In this document: positions 35,559 to 38,201 of the stretch, piece by piece
How positions within the stretch are numbered: the first letter of the stretch is position 1
Layout: every line of letters begins with the position of its first letter
Assembly: GCF_900109615.1 (NCBI RefSeq)
Contig: NZ_FOIX01000002.1
Location: 186,001 to 250,000, forward strand
Length of the DNA stretch: 64,000 nucleotides
DNA from: Kaistella antarctica
GTDB taxonomy: Bacteria; Bacteroidota; Bacteroidia; Flavobacteriales; Weeksellaceae
Direction of reading: 5' to 3'
Made by a program: the position numbers and the translations under genes
The notes under the pieces: model-generated
Database searches by the model: none
The model's input: the letters and a program-made list of their open reading frames with translations, nothing else
What the model was told of the DNA's origin: nothing

Positions 35559-36128
35559 ATGAAGAATATCGTAGTTTTAGTTTCCGGTGGCGGAACCAAC
35601 TTACAAAGAATTATAGACTGTATTGACAGTGGACAAATCCCGAATGCCAATATTTCTTTAGTTGTTGCCGACCGCGATTGTTTTGGATTGGACCGTGCAA
35701 AAAACCACGGCATTCCAACACAATTGATTCCAAGTGGGAAATCATTCTCGTCAGAATTAAAACAAATTCTTCCGGAGAACACTAATCTAATTGTCCTTGC
35801 TGGGTTTTTATCTATTTTAAATAAAGAGTTCTGCGATTCTTTTTCAGGAAAGATTGTCAATATTCATCCATCCTTATTACCAAAATTTGGTGGAAAAGGA
35901 ATGTGGGGACATCATGTTCATGAAGCTGTTTTAGCTGCCAATGAAAAAGAAAGTGGAGCAACCGTACACTACGTTACCTCCGGAATTGATGAAGGCGAAA
36001 TCATTCTTCAAAAATCATTTGAGATTTCAGAAGATGAAACTTTAGAAACCTTAGCGGAAAAAATTCATGCAGTCGAATATGAAATTTTTCCCAGAGCGAT
36101 AAATAAAGTGCTGGGAATTCCCCTCTAG
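35559..36128 (+). CDS. purN: Phosphoribosylglycinamide formyltransferase (GART)
   Basis: PurN formylates GAR with 10-formyl-THF, the third step of purine synthesis. The 189-aa length is normal. Visible motifs are VLVSGGGTNLQRII at the N-terminus, the catalytic NIHPSLLP (~107-114; Asn and His) and ATVHYVTSGIDEGEII with the catalytic-loop Asp. The final codons and TAG stop (ATTCCCCTCTAG) lie inside the left inverted repeat of the DUF559 element. The C-terminal IPL is therefore encoded by element sequence and the native end may have been replaced. Confidence 0.96.
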   Translation: MKNIVVLVSGGGTNLQRIIDCIDSGQIPNANISLVVADRDCFGLDRAKNHGIPTQLIPSGKSFSSELKQILPENTNLIVLAGFLSILNKEFCDSFSGKIVNIHPSLLPKFGGKGMWGHHVHEAVLAANEKESGATVHYVTSGIDEGEIILQKSFEISEDETLETLAEKIHAVEYEIFPRAINKVLGIPL

Positions 36129-36636
36129 TAAGAGGGGTGTCCGTAGGACGGGGTGTGTACTTAATATTATGGATAAAAAACTATTAACATATATTGACGG
36201 AGTTGAAATTTTTCGAAGAAAAATAGAAGTGCTTCCAAAGAATAAGGAACTTTTAGCCAGATCGAGAAGCTTAAGAAAGGGATACATATTGTCAGAAGTT
36301 ATATTTTGGAAACAGGTTCGAAAAAATGAATTTCATCAAATAGATTTTGACCGACAAAGAATAATTGGAAATTATATAGTTGATTTCTATATTAAATCTT
36401 TAGGAATTGTGATAGAGATAGATGGTTCAAGTCATAATTATAAAGAAGAATATGATGGAAAAAGGCAACAGTTTTTGGAATCATTAGATTTGAAAGTTTA
36501 TAGAATCTCAGATTTTAGAGTTAAGAATGATTTATTAAATGTGATGAAAGAGCTGGAAGATTATATTATTGAATATTTTTCATAATCAAATCTAACACCC
36601 CGCCTTCGGCACCCCTCTTTCAAAAAGAGGGGAATT
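36116..36636 (+). mobile_element. DUF559 endonuclease unit bounded by ~42-bp inverted hairpin repeats
   Basis: The left end (36116-36157) reads AATTCCCCTCT-AGTA-AGAGGGGTG then CCGTAGGACGGGGTGTG. The right end (36595-36636), reverse complemented, reads AATTCCCCTCTTTTTGAAAG, then AGGGGTGCCGAAGGCGGGGTGTT. Each end holds two hairpins (CCCCTCT/AGAGGGG, then a small GC stem). Between them is a single DUF559 gene. The unit separates purN from purH. There is no transposase, so movement would need help in trans or endonuclease-driven homing. I saw no clear target duplication. Confidence 0.6.
36169..36585 (+). CDS. DUF559-domain protein (Vsr-like small endonuclease fold)
   Basis: This 138-aa protein has a PD-(D/E)xK-like core of the DUF559/Vsr group. 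The sequence runs SEVIFWKQVRKNEF, FDRQRIIGNYIVDFYIKSLG with the catalytic Asp in IVDFY (~79), IVIEIDGSSHN with Glu and Asp (~89-91), and a final RISDFRVKNDL helix. Biochemical function in the family is not established; nicking or cleaving DNA is inferred from the fold. It is the only gene between two inverted hairpin repeats in the purine cluster, and it has no metabolic link to its neighbours. It looks more AT-rich than the purine genes around it. Confidence 0.85.
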   Translation: MDKKLLTYIDGVEIFRRKIEVLPKNKELLARSRSLRKGYILSEVIFWKQVRKNEFHQIDFDRQRIIGNYIVDFYIKSLGIVIEIDGSSHNYKEEYDGKRQQFLESLDLKVYRISDFRVKNDLLNVMKELEDYIIEYFS

Positions 36637-36683: not shown

Positions 36684-38201
36684 ATGTCAAAAAAAAGAGC
36701 GCTGATCTCCGTTTCCGATAAATCCGGACTCGTAGATTTTGCAAAGTTTTTAGAAGCCAACAATTACGAATTAATTTCCACGGGCGGAACTTTTAAACAT
36801 TTAAAAGACGCTGGTTTAAATCCAATTCAAATTGAGGAGGTCACCGATTTTCCTGAAATGTTGGACGGTCGTGTAAAAACTTTACACCCGAAAGTTCATG
36901 GCGGATTGCTTGCAGTTCGTTCCAATGAAGAACATATGAATACGGTGAAGCAACACGAAATCGGTTTAATTGATATGGTTGTCGTTAATCTTTATCCATT
37001 TTTCGCTCATGCAAATACGGATATTTCTTTAGAAGATAAAGTAGAATTTATCGATATCGGCGGACCTTCAATGTTGCGTTCTGGCGCCAAGAACTTTCAG
37101 TCTGTTGCGGTAATTACCAATGTTGAAGATTATGCTTTGGTTCAAAAAGAAATGGAAGAATCGGGCGACACGACTTTAGAAACGCGTAAAAAATTAGCCG
37201 GAAAAGTATTTAATTTGACTTCTGCTTATGATGCGGCGATTGCTCAAATGCTTTTAGATGAAGATTATCCACAATATTTAAAGGCTTCTTATCAGAAGGT
37301 TTCAGATTTGAGATATGGCGAAAACCCACATCAAACAGCGGCCTATTATACGTCCACAACCGAAAATGGTGCGATGAAAGATTTCGAAATTTTAGGAGGA
37401 AAAGAATTGTCCTTCAATAATCTTCGAGATATGGATTTATGTTGGAAAGTCGTGAATGAATTTAAAGAGCAGATGGCTTGTTGCGCAGTGAAACATTCTA
37501 CACCTTGCGGAGTCGCCATCGGAACAACGGCCGTAGGAACGTATAAGAAAACCTTCGAATGTGATCCAGTTTCGATCTTCGGCGGTATTATCGGAATGAA
37601 CTTTAAAGTAGATTTAGCCACGGCTGAAGAATTGAGCAAAACATTTTTAGAAATTGTAATGGCTCCAAATTTCGATGACGATGCGATTGAATTTTTAAAG
37701 AAGAAAAAAAATCTTAGAATCATTAAAATTAAAAACCCAGTGACCGATCAGCAAACTTGGGTGAAAATTGATGGTGGAATGTTAGTTCAGGATAATGACA
37801 ATCAGTTTTCTGAGGACATTAAAACGGTGACTGTGGCTCAGCCAACAACTGAACAGGAAAAGGCTTTATTATTCGCGCAACGCGTTGTGAAATATGTGAA
37901 GTCCAACGCAATAGTAGTTTCCAATGGCTATCAGGCTTTAGGAATTGGCGGCGGACAAGTCAACAGAATTTGGGCAACCGAACACGCCGTGGAAAGAGCA
38001 AAAGCAAAATTCGACGGAGATCTAGTTTTAGCTTCAGACGCCTTTTTCCCTTTCCGAGATGTCGTTGATTTCTGTGCCAAAGAAGGTATCAAAGCCATCA
38101 TCCAACCCGGCGGAAGTATGCGCGACGAGGACAGCATAGAAGCAGCAAACGAACATGGGATTCCTATGATGTTTACCAACATGAGACATTTTCTGCATTG
38201 A
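36684..38201 (+). CDS. purH: Bifunctional AICAR transformylase / IMP cyclohydrolase
   Basis: PurH performs the last two steps to IMP. The N-terminal MGS-like cyclohydrolase domain (~1-195; [33 protein letters not shown]) joins the transformylase domain (~200-505), with [12 protein letters not shown], the catalytic Lys-His in [13 protein letters not shown] and SDAFFPFRD. The 505-aa length is complete. It begins 47 nt after the right repeat of the DUF559 unit and probably depends on read-through or on a promoter within or after that unit. Confidence 0.97.

Follow-up and report, generated by a model that had tools for sequence, protein, structure and literature searches.

Several described systems share features with the unit reported here. 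The REP/RAYT (TnpA-REP) systems resemble it in having inverted hairpin units around one small gene, dispersed solo units, and units that follow the protein, and in-frame REP insertions are reported for RAYT subclass 2.4 (PMC6006769). Here, however, the enzyme is a Vsr-type nuclease and not a Y1/HUH transposase, and none of the 30 Y1 loci examined has the unit. Homing endonuclease genes, such as that of the Vsr-like I-Bth0305I, match it in fold, in clades bound to one site, in patchy presence, and in certain insertions at conserved gene sites, but in our case no intron or intein is seen, the inverted ends are palindromic, and homing is what we infer. For TnpB of IS200/IS605 it has been proposed (PMC8612924) that the enzyme cuts the element-free joint, the element then being restored from a sister copy; the unit described here differs in that neither a guide RNA nor TnpA is known for it, a symmetric palindrome would form the joint, and the corresponding role is putative. 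Terminal inverted repeats, as in insertion sequences and MITEs, are present as well. Rickettsia palindromic elements, too, are palindromic repeats inserted into protein genes with the reading frame kept; the translated ends of our unit differ in flanking a nuclease gene, and the review on those elements (PMC10969869) nowhere uses the word nuclease. The DUF559 domain itself is shared with 3hrl, the nearest solved fold, and with Caulobacter VsrA, studied as a mismatch-repair candidate (PMC12907096).

We found no description of the unit among the matches listed for DUF559, REP/RAYT, REP in Bacteroidetes and Chryseobacterium, Vsr-like homing, and Flavobacterium palindromic repeats (subscription journals lay mostly outside the scope of this search), and such a selfish element seems not to have been described yet. 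Comparison of its loci shows that the ends are cognate to the nuclease, that the element stays long at its sites and under selection, that a single palindrome is left when it is lost, and that it occurs in frame within genes. The explanation that we favor, and to which we give about an even chance on these comparative grounds, is a selfish element consisting of a Vsr/I-Bth0305I-type nuclease and its cognate palindromic ends, lost by recombination of those ends and probably kept by homing-type cutting. In short, the unit may behave as a homing gene whose ends resemble REP sequences.

A nuclease gene with two-hairpin ends between purN and purH

The window, by which we mean the whole 64 000-nt stretch of Kaistella antarctica DNA that was analysed, contains the unit described in Table 1. 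The initial annotation, made from the letters of the window, had described inverted ends of ~42 bp, each of two hairpins, around a single small nuclease gene and no transposase, separating purN from purH. The ends lie exactly where it placed them, gene positions confirm the location, and on both strands of both ends the two-hairpin fold is better than that of any of 200 shuffles (z −3.64 to −4.19). No second ORF of at least 60 aa lies wholly inside the unit, and the element has no transposase gene. Because the purN stop codon falls inside the left outer hairpin, the last PurN residues come from the element.

Table 1. Positions of the DUF559 unit and its neighbouring genes in the window
Feature	Positions	Strand	Details
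purN, left neighbour	35559..36128	+	final codons supplied by element
Left terminal unit, two hairpins	36116..36156	+	41 nt; outer stem 36120-36137, then short inner hairpin
purN stop codon	36126..36128	+	within left outer hairpin
DUF559 nuclease gene	36169..36585	+	138 aa; PF04480 match, modelled fold
Right terminal unit, imperfect inverted copy of left unit	36595..36636	-	42 nt; outer hairpin 36612-36632
purH, right neighbour	36684..38201	+	

The end pair was absent from the output of a repeat finder at default settings, probably because of indels between the arms. In the window's own genome (G000) the hairpin-unit pattern has two matches, both of them the ends of the purN-purH unit, and none elsewhere. 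That genome has one other DUF559-like match (L002, G000:C3:26815-27081), a weak one of 22 bits; it is part of a long helicase-type ORF, and we therefore reject the presence of further element copies there.

The 138-aa protein matches PF04480 at 85.3 bits (E 3.4e-24; cut-off 20.6 bits). The nearest solved structure to a model of 36169-36582 (pLDDT 92.3) is 3hrl, an uncharacterised DUF559 protein (Z 14.2), with further matches to the catalytic domain of the homing endonuclease I-Bth0305I (3r3p; Z 11.6 over 94 residues) and to Vsr (Z 9.3 over 98 residues); by sequence profile, the match is clear for 3hrl and weak for I-Bth0305I (E 0.043). The modelled fold thus supports the assignment to the PD-(D/E)xK type made in the initial annotation, and more particularly a Vsr/I-Bth0305I-like fold. 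Among the candidate active-site residues, E43, D72 and E83 do not vary across the 48 sequences compared, and D85, H89 and D96 occur in at least 90%; by analogy with Vsr, these conserved residues are presumably catalytic. The dN/dS ratio of DUF559, where computable, was 0.04-0.34 and mostly near 0.1, which indicates purifying selection.

The same model also matches mitoribosomal proteins of Toxoplasma and Tetrahymena (Z 8.6-9.5); we presume that these may be RAP-type domains.

Inverted ends at other DUF559 loci

A DUF559 protein match was found in 45 of 120 genomes of the same family, the window's own genome included, and the flanks of 30 loci from this set have similar ends at nearly all of them. 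The main survey set comprises the best 80 of 445 relatives from a scan of named records, with loci from Kaistella, Chryseobacterium, Epilithonimonas, Flavobacterium, Mariniflexile, Polaribacter and some MAGs. Strict end patterns recognize the left end at 55 of these 80 loci, the right end at 53, and both at 40. By a sequence-free inverted-repeat test, 67 of the 80 exceed the highest-scoring of 78 control windows (medians 49 vs 18), and the other 13 have no upstream/downstream inverted repeat above the controls. The initial annotation had mentioned DUF559 genes in similar repeat contexts in other flavobacteria, and this is borne out: the own genome has just the two ends, and many relatives have repeat-flanked copies.

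The hairpin occurs somewhere in the locus at 76 of the 80 DUF559 loci (3.5-6.4 kb long) vs none of 30 Y1/RAYT-type loci, which are shorter (2.6-3.4 kb) and come from a single genus, that of the window. Counted by genome, it is found in 30 of the 31 with a close DUF559 (at least 95 bits, a line drawn after inspection of the match scores) vs 20 of the 89 others (Fisher p 7e-14, from genome lists transcribed by hand); a reversed-pattern control had no match in any of the genomes listed. Pairing is kept in the inner hairpin although its sequence changes: for 161 distinct inner segments, 527 of 4830 shuffles fold equally well.

Beyond the family, in other Bacteroidota and on cyanobacterial plasmids, the ends differ in sequence and share a build, namely a palindrome followed by a G-rich tail. 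Thirty of the 48 loci in a further set score above 26 for inverted ends, a count that includes places fetched twice, five own-family loci, and some repeats not of the hairpin type (L257/L284, L281, L288, L289). On the cyanobacterial plasmids the ends are strong at L304 (128) and L305 (79) and weak at L303 (27) and L306 (21). Carriage by plasmids or phages we reject: at E 1e-10 or better the plasmid matches come to four records, each of them from Cyanobacteria, and the viral contigs have three weak relatives. The compared loci support the conclusion that repeat-flanked DUF559 is a real and widespread unit.

Two variants of the pattern can be recorded here. In the Chryseobacterium genome G098, which has no DUF559 match, clusters of 3 to 6 hairpin units lie within a few kb (L205, L206, L207) and share longer flanks, as if they were pieces of a larger repeat. 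The purN-purH element of G130 (L058) is longer by ~244 nt, which lie between its left unit and its nuclease gene.

Divergence of the ends with the nuclease and residence at sites

Distances between nuclease proteins and distances between ends are correlated (Mantel r 0.55, 0 of 2000 permutations) over 42 loci, hand-picked from about 70 at about one per site, with an inverted repeat >28 and a G or C run. A rerun on 38 loci, dropping L103 (16-nt repeat), L289 (odd long alignment) and the near-duplicates L252 and L265, gave r 0.51 (0 of 2000), and the correlation was weaker in stricter subsets (r 0.40, 0.34 and 0.34; 1, 2 and 7 of 2000). This is the co-divergence that would be expected of a nuclease and its recognition ends, with linked descent contributing too.

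For the most part, each nuclease clade keeps to one chromosomal site. A tree of 78 proteins, from which the truncated L122, L148 and L174 were left out, has one group each for purN-purH (8 proteins), uvrA (11), odhB (5), photolyase (6, not starred) and the 3′ side of hutU (6); copies 5′ of hutU form a group of 31, two members of which are located elsewhere. Descent looks vertical for the most part. DUF559 divergence on the whole tracks that of the neighbouring genes, and we reject a general excess of element exchange: the fourfold-site difference is lower in DUF559 than in the neighbour in 27 of 45 pairs for uvrA, 89 of 378 for hutU and 6 of 15 for purN, these pairs not being independent of one another. 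Non-monophyly of the Kaistella DUF559 genes was also rejected as proof of transfer, since a single Kaistella clade is not rejected (purN-purH set, AU p 0.125).

For one pair, G000 and G138, the numbers are suggestive of an element exchanged at its site after the species split. Their DUF559 genes differ at 5 of 27 fourfold sites vs 0.65 of 115 in purM, and dS is 0.48 in DUF559 vs 1.05-1.73 in purM, purN and purH. The low divergence is clear for this pair only and is weaker in pairs with G143; the lower GC3 of DUF559 than of its neighbours may be part of it. Among G000, G138 and G143 the ends are 91-100% identical and the adjacent spacer 68-84%.

The proposal of the initial annotation that nuclease and ends move together could at best apply to long time spans, since most copies diverge like their neighbours. 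Of the two routes it had offered, homing gains from the fold and the site-bound clades, and nothing was found for single-strand transposition.

A different reading is that DUF559 is a true transposase that recognises the hairpin units and carries the whole element, along with solo units, to new sites, the solo units being non-autonomous copies. Solo hairpin units, lacking the nuclease gene, do exist. The hairpin is present in 50 of the 120 genomes, many of them without a close DUF559, and a solo unit in an R-M gene of L125 is absent from the relative L151. There are also up to seven DUF559 matches per genome in other Bacteroidota. Against a transposase stand the site-bound clades, the high-identity pairs among the 80 loci, which nearly always share flanks, and the fold, which is of homing/repair type. 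Furthermore, and this weighs on the favored explanation too, we found no target-site duplication and no fresh, clean recent insertion pair among the loci compared; AATT is present at both outer ends of the element, but it is self-complementary. We consider this reading unlikely, and prefer the homing-type element with cognate ends.

Loss, scars and a proposed cycle

As for homing genes, element-free alleles of the same site exist, both at purN-purH and at hutU. From the 36 genomes of the genus we read 30 purN-purH junctions, of which 5 are filled, 2 are scarred, and 23 lack the element. The scars, in G118 and G125, belong to one clade near G000 and look like a left outer arm fused to a right outer arm, diverged since. 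Empty and scarred alleles thus exist within the genus and repeat-flanked DUF559 copies in related genomes, contrary to both of the outcomes that the initial annotation had held fatal to its mobile unit, namely purN-DUF559-purH conserved across the family without empty-site alleles and no other such copies.

In the purN-purH spacers of G123 (L037) and G140 (L039), other short palindromes, unlike the DUF559 ends, lie at the position of the relatives' element.

Upstream of hutU in Chryseobacterium we compared 90 regions, 7 of them selected for a palindrome already known there. The element fills 52 (23 plus, 26 minus, 2 short, 1 tandem), 8 have a solo symmetric palindrome, 1 has a lone hairpin of another form, and 29 have neither. 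In G154 and G303 both flanks match a filled relative up to the joint (identity 86-87% over 160 nt on the left, 87-93% over 150 nt on the right); for the six other solo palindromes the flank match to a filled relative is partial. Across 173 Chryseobacterium genomes the symmetric palindrome occurs in 15, once each. Nine of these 15 palindromes are found 98-215 nt 5′ of hutU, a position that the element occupies in relatives (one of the nine, in G296, is in a filled allele), and for this reason we read the palindrome as, in the main, a scar of the element. Against the explanation that we favor, many element-free alleles have no scar, namely the 23 of 30 at purN-purH and the 29 of 90 at hutU.

Both orientations of the element are thus known at the hutU site, along with the one tandem copy. 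The plus/minus pair that compares best has 85% similarity in the left flank up to ~20 nt short of the element, and the two elements themselves are 80.5% alike after inversion vs 53.8% uninverted. On the right, however, the flanks can be aligned no closer than 171 and 90 nt, and we do not accept a clean in-place inversion, re-insertion being plausible as well. The two orientations possibly arose by inversion through hairpin recombination, or else by separate insertions.

These observations suggest how a selfish element with cognate ends might be lost and regained. Each outer hairpin repeats the other in inverted as well as in direct orientation; if the two recombined, the element would be deleted and one palindrome would remain, and such recombination would also explain the tandem copies and perhaps the two orientations. 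The nuclease would then cut the element-free allele, perhaps at the post-loss palindrome; this is the predicted target because in no other form is the outer hairpin flanked by AATT at both ends. When the break is repaired on an element-bearing template, the element would be restored or spread, as for homing endonucleases and in the role put forward for TnpB, and new sites would be reached rarely. Two further lines do not bear on the cutting step. DUF559 is absent from scarred (4 of 4) and scar-free (6 of 6) empty genomes alike, so presence data say nothing on it, and we rejected the rarity of the palindrome (5 of 120 genomes) as a sign of it, scars being rare in any case.

The purifying selection and the neighbour-like divergence could instead belong to a vertically inherited host gene with a useful function, such as Vsr-type mismatch repair, whose hairpins are terminators; a Caulobacter DUF559 protein is a putative Vsr (PMC12907096). 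Such a gene would not be expected to show patchy presence with loss, a single site with copies in either orientation and one in tandem, ends that diverge with the protein, or in-frame insertions in unrelated genes (below). We regard a host function as quite unlikely and retain the selfish element.

Copies in frame inside genes

In-frame read-through copies with translated hairpins were found in HsdS, in HsdR ahead of the Walker A motif, and in type ISP genes. A cyanobacterial Eco57I-type methylase also holds an in-frame copy, presumably inserted just before motif I. In G442, where our search found one pheT, that gene contains an in-frame copy in a frame of 994 aa; the uninterrupted frames of relatives are 809 and 811 aa. 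Among 30 loci listed for the phylum search, five sit in open frames of at least 699 aa. When the element inserts inside genes, its stop-free hairpins may serve as tolerated linkers.

The hosts of these copies raise the idea of a defence or restriction part, with DUF559 working together with the R-M or BREX genes that hold or adjoin some copies, as the HsdR, HsdS, type ISP and Eco57I-type insertions might suggest. We think this very unlikely, given that housekeeping genes are the neighbours of the window copy and of the larger site groups, that one copy is in pheT, and that PADLOC matches were weak only. Finally, the initial annotation's term REP-like is apt for the architecture, which resembles REP pairs around a RAYT, and Y1_Tnp genes occur in 30 of the 36 genomes of the genus, but mobilisation of the hairpins in trans by a RAYT transposase, with DUF559 as cargo, is rejected as extremely improbable, since the hairpin is at none of the 30 Y1 loci of that one genus, the ends track DUF559, and G094 has hairpins without a Y1 match.

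Returning to the selfish element, a fuller claim can be formulated, which we consider possible rather than probable: that it represents a distinct class of selfish DNA, extending from Bacteroidota into Cyanobacteria, in which loss makes the palindrome that the nuclease targets, repair restores the element, and insertion in frame without splicing is accommodated even in an essential tRNA synthetase. The selfish element itself would provide a nuclease-based counterpart to the REP/RAYT pairing, a biological setting for the DUF559 family, and a homing-type gene able to persist without an intron or intein; translated hairpins would moreover account for odd Pro/Gly-rich insertions in R-M proteins. 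Given the scars, the copies in frame and the ends that co-diverge with the nuclease, short DNA substrates and a single protein of 138 residues would suffice for a direct test of the mechanism.

Two observations on R-M and methyltransferase loci may be added. The type ISP-like R-M ORFs of L125 (64-4032) and L151 (1027-3759) contain several in-frame translated hairpin units besides the DUF559 insert. At L303 and L306, on plasmids of Synechocystis sp. B12, DUF559 lies beside apparently split or adjoining methyltransferase genes (DUF1156, PglX-like).
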